28,133 nucleotides of DNA from a virus. The notes beneath the pieces are model-generated. The model made no database searches. It was not told where the DNA came from and worked only from the letters and a program-made list of their open reading frames with translations. The DNA lies in IMG/VR virus record IMGVR_UViG_3300029319_000365, positions 1 to 28,133 of that record; one strand, 5' to 3'. The stretch's first letter is position 1, and every line of letters begins with the position of its first letter. The position numbers were made by a program, and so were the translations under genes. Shown piece by piece: positions 8,833-12,764 of this stretch.

Positions 8833-10773
8833 CTACCTATTTGTATACAACAGTCCCATCTCATCTATTGCTTTAACTACAATATCTTTAACCTGCTTGT
8901 CTCCAACGTAGACGTTAAATCCTGGAGTGCCTGCACCTCTACCATTTAGGTTCTTATTCAGTTTTTTCAACTCTTCGAGTTGTTCTTTTTGCTCTGTACC
9001 CAGAATTTTCTGCAGGGGGCCGCCACCTTTAAAGTGCATGCTCACATCGCGAGGGTGCAATGCGTAGGCTTTGCCCTTTGCATCCCTAACCAGGTCGTTT
9101 ACCTTTTCAGGATCGTCAGCCATAAGGCCAACGCCTGTGCCGACTGCGAGGCCTCCGGCCCCAACAGCAAATTTCTTTTTAGCGGTGACGTCCCCCGAGA
9201 AGCGGCTCGCGCGCTTCGCCATACGGCCTGCTCGGGTGGCGACGGCCAGGCTTCGGCCCGCCATCAGGGCACGTGCACCAACAAGCGCTCCTGTTCCGGC
9301 GGCGCCGAGACCCAAAACAGGGCCAGCAAACAACGCGGCAACCGCTGCAAGAGGCACAGCTACTTTGGCTACTTTTGAAAAGCCGTCCTCCGCCTTGCCA
9401 AGGGACTCAGCCATGTCGCCCAGACCCTCAACCGCGGGAATAAGGACGTTATCAAAAAATGGCTCAGCAGACACAATGAATGACATGAATGCTTTCTGTA
9501 TTTTCTCGACAATAGGCATTGTTTCTGCAGCAAGTTTCTTGAAGTCGTCAAGGTTTCGTTTCTCCAGTTTAAGCTTGGCTTGGGACTTGCCCAGTAATTC
9601 TGCCGCCTCTTTGCCGCTTATCCCCAGCGCGCTGGCGATGGCCATAAGCTCTTGTCCGGATGCCTTTGCTATATCGACTCCGCCGCGAGCAAAAGCCTCT
9701 CGCATCATCTCAATACCTGCGATTGGGTCCTCATAAGCTGCATTCAACATATCGATAGAATTAAGATATGGGCCGCCCAAAATAGCGTTAAGACGTCCAA
9801 CTGCTCGGCCGGCATCATCAAAAGTCTCAAACTGGCCAGTGACCTTAATCAAGGTGGACATATCAGTACCTAGGGCCTTAGCGGTTACCCTCATCTCGTC
9901 GAATACGTTGACACCGTTACGACCAAAGCGTACTAAAAATTCCGAACTTGCATTAAACTCAGATGCTAATTTATTAATATCTTCTTTCAAATCTATGGCT
10001 GTGGAAGCCATGCTTAGCATCGCGTCGGACGCTTCGTCTGTGGACATGTGCATGCCCTGGGTTGCTGTTTGCATGATTTCGGCCTGATTACTGAAGGACA
10101 TCCCCACAGCGTCCAAAATAACCGAGGTGTCAGTTAATACTCCTTGTTCTGTCTCGTTTAAATACGCAAAGTCGGTGAACTCATTACGAAGCGCAGATAC
10201 CGATCGTACGACCTCGTCAAAGGTAATACCTGCTTGAAGGTTATTCAACGCAGTAGACTGGATGATTTTGTTGTACTCTTTTGTGGCACCACTCTGACGA
10301 CGGAAATTCTGAATGGCCGTGTCTTGCTGCAGCGTGAACTGGAGCAGGACGTCCAGGTACTTGGTACCGGCTGCAGCTATGAGCCGCATATTGGCATCAC
10401 CATCCGCTACCGCGCTGGCGAAGTCTTGCATGCTGGTTTCGGAGTTATTCAGTCGACCAATAAAGTCTCCGAGCTGAGTGTTGGTTCCTAGAAAACTGCC
10501 TGCTAAGCTATCTACAAGCTCGCGACTCTGCTTCAAAGTCTCAAGCTGCTTCTTCAGTGCCTGCGAGACGCCCTCATGCGCATTAGCTAGGTCAATGACT
10601 TTCTGCTGAAGGTCGGCTACCACTTCAGCCTGGGCTCGATAGGCCTCGGTGCCTTCTTTCTCGGCCTTTAATTTATCTCTTTCGAGCTGAAGCTGTCTTC
10701 TCGTTCTTTGTTCATTTAGCTTGTCTAGTTCTAATTGTCTTAGTTGTCGTTCTAGATCTTCTTTCGTAGCCAT
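8833..10773 (-). CDS. Tail tape measure protein
   Basis: A 646-aa protein with the classic tape measure plan. Residues 1-90 are a highly charged coiled coil. The middle is largely helical, with many short repeats of Ala, Met and charged residues. Residues about 468-500 form a hydrophobic Ala/Gly/Leu segment (VAVPLAAVAALFAGPVLGLG), the type of segment that inserts into or crosses the host membrane during DNA ejection. The C-terminal part is basic and then polar. In tailed phages the length of this protein sets tail length; at about 0.15 nm per residue this one would give a tail near 95-100 nm. It follows the tube and chaperone genes, as in most contractile-tail phages. I saw no lysozyme or peptidase domain. 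The start ATG is at 10771-10773. Confidence 0.9.
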   Translation of the reverse strand: MATKEDLERQLRQLELDKLNEQRTRRQLQLERDKLKAEKEGTEAYRAQAEVVADLQQKVIDLANAHEGVSQALKKQLETLKQSRELVDSLAGSFLGTNTQLGDFIGRLNNSETSMQDFASAVADGDANMRLIAAAGTKYLDVLLQFTLQQDTAIQNFRRQSGATKEYNKIIQSTALNNLQAGITFDEVVRSVSALRNEFTDFAYLNETEQGVLTDTSVILDAVGMSFSNQAEIMQTATQGMHMSTDEASDAMLSMASTAIDLKEDINKLASEFNASSEFLVRFGRNGVNVFDEMRVTAKALGTDMSTLIKVTGQFETFDDAGRAVGRLNAILGGPYLNSIDMLNAAYEDPIAGIEMMREAFARGGVDIAKASGQELMAIASALGISGKEAAELLGKSQAKLKLEKRNLDDFKKLAAETMPIVEKIQKAFMSFIVSAEPFFDNVLIPAVEGLGDMAESLGKAEDGFSKVAKVAVPLAAVAALFAGPVLGLGAAGTGALVGARALMAGRSLAVATRAGRMAKRASRFSGDVTAKKKFAVGAGGLAVGTGVGLMADDPEKVNDLVRDAKGKAYALHPRDVSMHFKGGGPLQKILGTEQKEQLEELKKLNKNLNGRGAGTPGFNVYVGDKQVKDIVVKAIDEMGLLYTNR

Positions 10774-10784
10774 TTAAAACCCCT

Positions 10785-11111
10785 CTAGTTTTTGAATGGC
10801 CACCTTAAGCCTGTTTCAAGCTCAAATTTCTTAACGGCCCGGTTGAGGCTGTACTTTGAGTTCATTGTTTTAGGATCATTAAGTCCATTTTTAAGATAAG
10901 AGTCCATATAACGCTTCTCGCTGTGTAGAGCGTTTGTGAAAGCGTCAATCTGGGATGTTGTTCCTCTAATGTTGAGAGGCACATCGTATCCCATCGCGTA
11001 AAGATCCAACATCATGTTGCGTGCCTGGATGGCAAACTTTGTGTATAGCGCCTCGTTTAAAGGCTTGTCGAGATTGTTAAGATCTATAACTGGTTTTACT
11101 ACATCACTCAT
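10785..11111 (-). CDS. Small conserved-looking tail-module protein of unknown function
   Basis: A 108-aa protein beginning MSDVVKPVIDLNNL. An upstream in-frame TTG (11145-11147) would add 12 residues, but I prefer ATG at 11109-11111: the extra residues look non-conserved in character, and a GGGA element lies about 11 nt before the ATG. Features seen are a helix with FAIQARNMMLDLYAMG, the string NIRGTTSQIDAFTNALHSEK, and an aromatic end (LETGLRWPF). No zinc or catalytic motif is visible. It sits between the gp26-like chaperone and the tape measure, so a role in tape measure packaging or tail assembly is possible, but this rests on position only. Confidence 0.8.
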   Translation of the reverse strand: MSDVVKPVIDLNNLDKPLNEALYTKFAIQARNMMLDLYAMGYDVPLNIRGTTSQIDAFTNALHSEKRYMDSYLKNGLNDPKTMNSKYSLNRAVKKFELETGLRWPFKN

Positions 11112-11134
11112 GAAAAGACTGTCCCTGTTAAATA

Positions 11135-11142
11135 TAAATAGT
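11135..11142 (-). promoter_or_regulatory. Candidate late-promoter motif ACTATTTA (site 1)
   Basis: The coding strand reads ACTATTTA, 24 nt before the ATG of the 108-aa gene, in the short gap after the chaperone extension. It is one of several copies of the same octamer in leaders of this window. Confidence 0.4.
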
Positions 11143-11159
11143 TTCAAATAAGAAAGTAC

Positions 11160-11360
11160 TTACTTCTTTGTTCTGGCTTGTTCATTTCGTTCCTTCTGGT
11201 CGCGGAATTCTTGCGTCAATCTCTCAAGAAACCATCGCCGCAAAGCAATAGGCAGGTTATACAGTTCTGTAAATGACCACCCTCCGTGGTGCTTCAACAG
11301 GAAAAACTCTTCATAAACTGCTTCTTGGTATTTAGGCGTCAGGCCAAAAAAACGCTGCCG
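11160..11360 (-). CDS. Out-of-frame C-terminal extension of the gp26-like chaperone (probable frameshift product)
   Basis: In the frame +1 (equivalently -2) to the gp26-like gene an ORF opens after a TGA at 11361-11363, crosses the T7 run, and stays open to a TAA at 11160-11162. Beyond the junction it encodes 60 residues: LTPKYQEAVYEEFFLLKHHG, then a helix containing FTELYNLPIALRRWFLERL, then a very basic, charged tail ending QARTKK. The ORF contains no ATG or GTG, so independent start is unlikely; only TTG/CTG codons are available and none has a good Shine-Dalgarno site. Shifting on the T7 would give a fusion of about 337 aa (+1) or 338 aa (-2). In lambda (G/GT), P2 (E/E') and Mu, tail assembly chaperones between tube and tape measure genes are made in long and short forms this way. 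The peptide fits the helical, charged extension seen there. A one-base assembly error in the homopolymer is the main alternative. Confidence 0.75.
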   Translation of the reverse strand, partial: RQRFFGLTPKYQEAVYEEFFLLKHHGGWSFTELYNLPIALRRWFLERLTQEFRDQKERNEQARTKK

Positions 11361-12174
11361 TCATGGGCATGCCTACCTTTCCTTCTTCGCCACACTTGAT
11401 ACAAGTAAAGTCAAAACGAAGGTCGAGGTCGGGCTTGATCTCCTCATAAGTATTTCGGAGGTGCTTAACGTCCGGGAGAGGCATAGACTCAATAAACTGA
11501 CTCAATACAGGTGGGTCCTTGTGCTCATTAGCCTGCACCACTACAGCCTTAAGCAGCCCGGTGACCGGGTTGGAGACTCCCTTGTTGCCGTCACCCACCA
11601 ACATGGCCACTGTCCGCTTCTCGTCTCTTGATGTCAAGAGGCGGACATAAATGCGTACCTTGCTAACCGGCAATTCAAAAGAAAAGATGCCGGCGCCCTC
11701 ATCAGTCACACTATCTGGCAAATCCAAAGTGCGCGGCTCAAGTTCTGTTAAATCAAAATCATATGGCGCTTCATGACCACAAGCAGTACAGGGAGTATTC
11801 ACCGTATAGAAGGGGCCAAAGCCAGTAATTCTAGCAGCAATAAGCAGAGCATTCTTGTCGCCTATAAGTAGGTCCCCAACTTTGATGGCCGGGTCGACAA
11901 TGACAGCGCTTAGAAGCCTGTCGATCGCTAGCTCATTCTTTAGTAGAGCTTCGGAGGTAAGGATGTCTTCCTCTTTGGCCGTCATGTGTTTGATTTCGAC
12001 CACAGTCTCACCCCGGAGAGGGTGGCCCTCAGGGTAGTATAGGCCCTTGCTGGGCAGCTCTACAAACTCTGTGGGATTAACGAATGCAAAGAGATCGGAT
12101 GTATCGACAGTGGGGGGAGTTGGCGCGTCGGGGTGCGGTGCGCCAAGCCGCTCTGAGTTGTTTCTTCGTGACAA
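11332..12174 (-). CDS. gp26-like (T4_baseplate family) protein, probable tail assembly chaperone
   Basis: A 280-aa protein of the T4_baseplate/gp26 type. Hallmarks are VELPSKGLYYPEGHPL (residues 38-52), a helical stretch with MTAKEEDILTSEALLK (64-79), the L-I-G-D-K-N-A-L-L-I-A-A-R segment (103-115), and two CxxC pairs (C129/C132 and C258/C261) that probably bind one zinc. The end is AFFWPDA. In T4 gp26 is a hub/baseplate assembly protein, but the location here, between tube and tape measure, is that of the G/GT tail assembly chaperones. The start is TTG at 12172-12174; GAAGG lies 6 nt before it and no upstream ATG fits. The stop follows a T7 run and the reading continues in another frame, which suggests a regulated long form. 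Confidence 0.85.
   Translation of the reverse strand: MSRRNNSERLGAPHPDAPTPPTVDTSDLFAFVNPTEFVELPSKGLYYPEGHPLRGETVVEIKHMTAKEEDILTSEALLKNELAIDRLLSAVIVDPAIKVGDLLIGDKNALLIAARITGFGPFYTVNTPCTACGHEAPYDFDLTELEPRTLDLPDSVTDEGAGIFSFELPVSKVRIYVRLLTSRDEKRTVAMLVGDGNKGVSNPVTGLLKAVVVQANEHKDPPVLSQFIESMPLPDVKHLRNTYEEIKPDLDLRFDFTCIKCGEEGKVGMPMTAAFFWPDA
11346..11352 (-). promoter_or_regulatory. T7 slip site for recoding at the end of the gp26-like gene
   Basis: The coding strand is GCG-TTT-TTT-TGG in the zero frame, seven T in a row, 11 nt before the TAA stop (11332-11334). A Phe tRNA on the second TTT can re-pair perfectly after a +1 or a -2 shift, and both lead into the long open frame. A simple -1 shift fails because it meets TGA within a few codons. 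RNA polymerase slippage on the run is another possible mechanism. Confidence 0.6.
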
Positions 12175-12188
12175 AAGTTACCTTCTTT

Positions 12189-12764
12189 CTAGGCTCCTGC
12201 AGCAGCGGCTACAGCTGGCCCAACAGCATAGTCAGCCCAATCATAGCGGAATTCCATGTCAATGTTAAGGATATCTTCGGCGCCATAGTCCAAATCACCA
12301 AAGGTTGCGCTGATGATAAAGGCGTTGTTGAGGGTCCATGTACCAACAAGACCACCCTGACCATTCAGCTCCTCAATAATAACATTACCAAGGGCATCAA
12401 GAGCACCAGCCTTGTTCACGGTTCCTGGAGCCTGGGCTGCGTTAAAGAAGACATCTTCCTGAACGTCAGGCTTAAGGTAACCGGAGCGGGTCAGCGCATC
12501 ATAAAGAATCTTGTTACCATCTGGGTTAATAGCATTAACGATGGTGGCACTAATAGTGTTCCACTCAACGTTGCCTGGGTAGTAGTAGGTGTTACCGAGG
12601 AACTTATGTTCGGTTACTCCTACACTGTACGATGGCTTGGAGACACTCCTAGCAAGGTACTGCTGATAGGCATACTCGGCATCCTCCGAGATTAGATTTG
12701 GAAGAGTAAGCAAAAATCTATGCTGTCTTCTAGGTTCTGATAAAGCGCTTGTCCAAAATGGCAT
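12189..12764 (-). CDS. Tail tube protein (gp19-like)
   Basis: A 191-aa protein placed directly after the sheath gene, as in nearly all contractile-tail phages. The beginning (M-P-F-W-T-S-A... R-R-Q-H-R-F-L-L-T-L-P) and the later strands (VGVTEHKFLGNTYYYPGNVEW, then I-S-A-T-I-V-N-A) match the gp19 beta-sandwich, and the region W-T-L-N-N-A-F-I-I-S-A-T-F-G-D-L-D-Y is the conserved strand near the C-terminus, where gp19 proteins have a G-x-L-D-Y/W motif. It is a little longer than T4 gp19 (163 aa). Hexamers of this protein stack into the rigid inner tube through which DNA leaves. The start ATG (12762-12764) is preceded by AGGAGAC. Confidence 0.93.
   Translation of the reverse strand: MPFWTSALSEPRRQHRFLLTLPNLISEDAEYAYQQYLARSVSKPSYSVGVTEHKFLGNTYYYPGNVEWNTISATIVNAINPDGNKILYDALTRSGYLKPDVQEDVFFNAAQAPGTVNKAGALDALGNVIIEELNGQGGLVGTWTLNNAFIISATFGDLDYGAEDILNIDMEFRYDWADYAVGPAVAAAAGA

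Follow-up and report, generated by a model that had tools for sequence, protein, structure and literature searches.

The gene encoding a gp26-like protein in the genome of an uncultured T4-like phage raises the question of whether it specifies one protein or two, the longer one by a change of reading frame close to its end. The phage is represented by a virus record of 28,133 bases, which was analysed at its full length and is referred to here as the window. Phages lambda and P2 and some T4-like phages produce a longer form of their tail assembly chaperone by frameshifting. Results of our analysis indicate, with a probability that we estimate at about 0.9, that this gene encodes tail assembly chaperones of a T4-type contractile phage and yields two proteins through a +1 slip on UUU_Y. 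The second, longer chaperone would very probably be made by ribosomes that slip one base forward.

The genes considered here are encoded on the minus strand. The gp26-like (TAC-N-like) short chaperone of 280 aa (11332..12174) is preceded by the gene of the tail tube protein (12189..12764; phrog_4542 tail tube, E 6.5e-20) and followed by that of the tape-measure protein (8833..10773; phrog_167 tape measure, E 7e-7). This is the position given in a preliminary description of the same DNA, with the small correction that one 120-aa ORF of unknown function (10785..11147) separates the chaperone locus from the tape-measure gene. No Pfam- or PHROG-type family was found for the product of this ORF, and phage Mel-JY01 has an ORF of 71 aa where the window has this one of up to 120 aa. 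The start codon of the gp26-like gene is a TTG at 12174, behind AAGAAGG, and the LSRRNN start is kept without an ATG in close relatives. The sheath protein of the window (15611-12822) is unusually long (929 aa), and Pfam sheath models match its C-terminal part only.

The gp26-like ORF ends with MTAAFFWPDA and a TAA stop at 11334-11332, 11 nt past a run of seven T (11346..11352). This run spans two consecutive Phe codons, the last ones of the ORF, and the initial base of the TGG that follows, i.e., TTT TTT T(GG). The coding strand of the window has no other run of at least seven T, and an A7 run is absent. In the +1 frame, no stop occurs from 11360 until a TAA at 11162-11160, and the residues read in it after the slip are GLTPKYQEAVYEEFFLLKHHGGWSFTELYNLPIALRRWFLERLTQEFRDQKERNEQARTKK. 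These 61 codons with their stop (11160..11345) encode a putative C-terminal domain (TAC-C-like, resembling gp51 and DUF6760), and the segment 11332..11345, comprising GGCCTGACGCC and the 0-frame stop TAA, is used by both frames. As the preliminary description had stated, the T7 run lies 11 nt before the end of the ORF, and the second frame contains neither ATG nor GTG; the one TTG of the second frame, at 11297, had not been counted. The -1 frame, which was described as closed at once by a TGA, meets it within a few codons. The fusion product was foreseen at about 37 kDa, and its computed size is 337 aa and 37.9 kDa, with a second-frame part that is basic (calculated pI 9.2). Since the chance of an open frame this long is about 6% from base composition, the openness of the frame alone is unremarkable, and its significance rests on conservation.

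Searches with the gp26-like protein and two named relatives as queries, complemented with named phages, provided 251 gp26-like loci, which are partly redundant and comprise about 160 distinct junction sequences. With the second-frame profile, 242 of the 251 loci were found to have the second frame in +1 phase and one to have it in the other frame. Contig ends truncate five of the remaining eight loci. The last three belong to phages XacN1, Paride, and BRock; the profile does not recognise their second frames, the homology of which was judged by eye. A six-T site or a 0-frame fusion at the slip position was found in none of the 251 loci. A scan of genome contigs yielded three loci only, with junctions of the same phage type. 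For 58 distinct second-frame DNA sequences of the nearest clade, the median dN/dS was 0.10 (64 pairs with dS of 0.1-1.5), and the comparison of the window with locus L002 revealed only synonymous changes in the second frame at a dS of about 0.5. Variability in the +1 phase amounts to 0.84, 0.49, and 1.44 bits at the three codon positions, the third being the highest. Sequence comparison thus indicates that the second frame is under strong purifying selection, and, judged by its conservation, the long product is real. The preliminary description would have been contradicted by reads with six T, or by related genomes in which the segment is missing or under relaxed selection; among the relatives, neither six-T sites nor relaxed selection was encountered. 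The alignment of relatives that it proposed as a test revealed conservation at the protein level and a recurring slip site.

Both parts of the predicted long product are homologous to proteins of phage T4. The gp26-like ORF matches PF12322 (T4_baseplate; E 4e-14, 53 bits vs. the curated cut-off of 24.5) and phrog_150 (baseplate hub; E 4e-16), and PF12322 also covers T4 gp26, S-PM2 gp26, and residues 1-201 of T4 gp51, after which 48 residues of gp51 remain. The second-frame profile aligns with a set made up of the C-terminal 50 residues of the gp51 proteins of eight phages and of S-PM2 gp51 (hhalign E 4e-5, not equalled in 100 column shuffles, probability 69%), which is a single comparison of short domains, like the other gp51 links of this kind, with moderate probabilities of 62-69%. 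A PF12322 domain is followed by a short gp51-like C-terminal end, as in a long form. The profile aligns also with DUF6760 (hhalign E 7.5e-5, 0 of 100 shuffles as good). The Pfam model of DUF6760 (PF20546) was matched by 20 of 37 relatives, with the best E of 7e-5, and the window segment, with 17.9 bits, does not reach its cut-off of 27; phrog_634 ("baseplate hub assembly catalyst") was matched by 7 of 37 second-frame members. The second frame carries no PF12322 copy of its own and is not a separate, complete long-form gene as in T4.

Structure predictions were based on alignments built from the window and IMG/VR loci only. For the short form, the AlphaFold model (pLDDT 85) resembles gp26-type hub proteins predicted in BFVD for many phages (best match E 3e-20; SP-15 gp26, E 2e-18), and the model of the second-frame domain (pLDDT 84.6) consists of three helices, arranged as helix, turn, short helix, and long helix. 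Among solved structures, nothing significant was found by sequence search or by fold comparison with the PDB; the fold match to the HK97 tail chaperone 2ob9 has an E of 3.8 and is not evidence. A tblastn search of plasmids with SP-15 gp26 gave no match.

Natural fusions argue most strongly for the two parts acting as a single chain. In contractile-tail clusters of Bacteroidota, DUF6760 follows a gp26-like gene, and in two of them (L267:859-1623 and L268:859-1623) both form one continuous ORF of 255 aa, the first 208 residues of which match the gp26-like profile (E 1e-7) and the end of which matches the second-frame profile (E 7.5e-5). In a third cluster (L266, minus strand), the gp26-like protein and DUF6760 are encoded by separate overlapping ORFs. 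Because of the PF12322 short form, the gp51/DUF6760-like second frame, and these one-chain homologues, we consider the products of the locus to be a short and a long chaperone.

The way in which the second frame is reached can be judged from the junctions of relatives. Among distinct junctions, TTT TTT TGG occurs 124 times, TTT CTT TGG 21 times, CTT TTT TGG and TTT CTA TGG three times each, TTT TTT TAC twice, and TTC TTT TGG, TTT CTA TTC, and TTT CTT TAC once each. In the 242 loci, the second frame comes immediately behind TTT TTT TGG CC or a variant of it. Named phages add TTT TTT CAC (SP-15), TTC TTT CGT (SagM-GXN1), CTG TTT CGC (BRock), and TTT TTT AGT (LIS04). UUU is followed by U or C in every one of these junctions, so that a Phe-tRNA could pass from UUU to UUY with perfect pairing. 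The preliminary description allowed a slip of either +1 or -2, the latter known from phage Mu and giving a product with one extra Phe. A -2 slip agrees with the window itself, where the second UUU on T7 would also re-pair perfectly, and TTT CTT TGG is compatible with it if the first pair is G-U. However, in TTC TTT TGG (loci L058, L059, and L061) it would put the Phe-tRNA on UCU, and TTT CTA TGG and the sites of SagM-GXN1 and BRock have no -2 pairing in common. As the slip-site variants share the UUU_Y +1 route and no single -2 route, pairing rules favour +1, and a -2 slip seems quite improbable. The variants also bear on slippage of RNA polymerase on the homopolymer at the junction, which would give mixed mRNAs, one of them continuous. 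Seven T are short for slippage of a bacterial polymerase, and the relatives with TTTCTTTGG, TTTCTATGG, and TTCTTTTGG keep the second frame with homopolymers of no more than four T; the existence of variants without a long homopolymer excludes this as the general route, and we regard it as highly improbable.

The frame relation could also be apparent, if the real run had six T and the gene were continuous. Although homopolymers are prone to sequencing and assembly errors, the same relation is seen in more than 200 contigs and isolate genomes, including those with non-homopolymer sites; on this family-wide pattern an error is rejected for the family, and we give it next to no credence. Another reading would make the second frame a separate small gene, translated from the TTG at 11297 or by translational coupling, and database annotators do call short ORFs at this place (S-PM2 "gp51", SP-15 gp46, and immuto gp232). 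Start codons, however, are absent from most relatives and are not conserved: among 58 distinct second frames, 37 lack ATG, GTG, and TTG in the first 24 codons, and the others have starts at differing places. Moreover, the G1, L2, and Y6 residues of the second-frame domain, which are invariant or nearly so, lie upstream of every possible start, and T4 and Bacteroidota homologues have both domains on one chain. We reject an independent gene for want of conserved starts and ascribe very little likelihood to it. In its composition, the locus resembles that of a frameshifted chaperone, with a short ORF that ends in a conserved slippery site and an overlapping out-of-frame ORF that has no conserved start of its own. 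The slip-site recurrence, the second-frame conservation, the lack of a conserved start, and the homologous fusions bear out the earlier proposal of an extension analogous to that of lambda G/GT.

No stimulator common to the relatives, either a Shine-Dalgarno sequence or an RNA structure, was found. Ahead of the slip site of the window, Shine-Dalgarno-like pairing is weak at best (-2 kcal/mol), and the downstream RNA structure is not unusual across relatives (mean z of -0.26). Some groups of relatives have G-rich upstream sequences, and the window is not among them. The 0-frame stop lies several codons beyond the slip, not in the A site. We infer slippage itself, its efficiency and +1 direction, and the binding partners of the products, and propose the following course of events. 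Most ribosomes would terminate at 11332 and produce the 280-aa short form, while a minority, with the Phe-tRNA on UUU before a pyrimidine (UUU_U in the window), would slip by +1 with perfect re-pairing and read 61 more codons to give the long form of 337 aa. The lambda G/GT pair suggests, by analogy, that the short form may coat the tape-measure protein, that the long form may recruit tail tube subunits through its C-terminal helical domain, and that both forms would depart before the tail is completed.

Tail assembly chaperones of T4-like phages were identified by Vladimirov, Gautam and Davidson (Virology 2022, 566:9-15; doi 10.1016/j.virol.2021.11.003), as cited in PMC10885494 and PMC12846349, and gp26 and gp51 had been listed as hub assembly chaperones already in a 2010 review of T4 (PMC3004832). 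A passage of PMC10885494 states that some T4-like phages have a short and a long gene in place of frameshifting, and one of PMC12846349 refers to poly-T motifs as -1 signals in T4-like chaperone genes. Accordingly, the link between gp26-type and G/GT chaperones drawn in the preliminary description is correct, but, as far as the citing passages tell, it was published in 2022, and what our analysis would add is the +1 UUU_Y version, its spread in uncultured T4-type phages, and the DUF6760 connection. The remark that T4 itself is without such a frameshift agrees with the same passages of the T4-like chaperone literature.

Like the locus of the window, the T4-like chaperones (26/51) comprise a PF12322 short form and a C-terminal helical domain on the long form, and in most relatives they are encoded between tube and tape measure. 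In T4, unlike in the window, the long form is encoded separately by a duplicated gene (51), which has diverged from 26. Vladimirov et al. reportedly name these T4 genes, 26 and 51, as those of the two forms. In S-PM2, as in the window, a second-frame domain (57 aa) that has the same motif comes directly after a PF12322 gp26, and a long gene follows in the tape-measure position; unlike in the window, the shift to the second frame is -1, at T TTT TTC. The S-PM2 gp26 and annotated gp51 (57 aa; L255:10472-11364) are joined by the -1 frame at TCTTTTTTC, and the annotated start of gp51 is probably an artefact. A -1 second frame was noted also in other more distant relatives, XacN1 (T TTT TTT) and Paride (T TTT TTC).

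P2 E/E+E' and lambda G/GT resemble the locus of the window as two-product chaperones made by frameshifting on a U-rich sequence immediately ahead of the tape-measure gene, but their shift is -1, and in the T4-like poly-T site, as given in the cited passage of PMC12846349, it is -1 as well, in contrast to +1 in the window. The canonical arrangement of -1 frameshifting (X XXY YYZ with the second ORF in -1) is not found here, as the second ORF is in +1. The less usual part of the system is the forward direction of the slip. A +1 frameshift in a tail chaperone gene has been described for the haloarchaeal myovirus HSTV-2 (PMC5009743), which shares with the proposed slip of the window its direction and the kind of gene. 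The CUU_U step of prfB (RF2) is a possible slip in the immuto-group variant TTT CTT TGG, whereas the in-frame stop that prfB has in the A site is lacking, and no conserved Shine-Dalgarno stimulator was identified.

The preliminary description also proposed a search of the second-frame peptide against gpT/E'-type extensions. A direct hhalign comparison of the window second frame with P2 E' was not significant (E 0.07), and the link passes instead through DUF6760 (L266-L268), which aligns with P2 E' (L270:1431-1858) with an E of 5e-6 (FHWPPSELYPM in one vs. FHWSPEQLLHM in the other). A DUF6760 bridge would, tentatively, tie the P2 and T4-type long forms into one family; as the alignments behind it are small, we treat it as a lead. 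DUF6760 is named in none of the papers that were searched. It is possible, at somewhat less than even odds, that T4-type gp26/gp51, the gp26-like and DUF6760 proteins of injection systems, and P2 E/E' share one ancestral C-terminal chaperone domain, the coupling of which to the short form was rewired repeatedly, by +1 slip, -1 slip, in-frame fusion, or gene duplication, with U-rich junction codons that allow a change between +1 and -1.

The +1 direction, the UUU_Y site, and the DUF6760 bridge to P2 E' are the less documented elements of this system. Small hypothetical genes of immuto (gp232, L083:3333-3443), SP-15 (gp46, L087:3258-3377), and BRock (gp135, L091:3255-3437) look like internally started, truncated second-frame domains. 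Gene callers overlook the second protein, and named phages have it either without annotation or with an internal start; hence, many environmental T4-type phages would lack an annotated long form of their chaperone. The +1 UUU_Y site is a testable recoding signal, and the in-frame fusions, together with the DUF6760 link, suggest a chaperone design common to phage tails and contractile injection systems.
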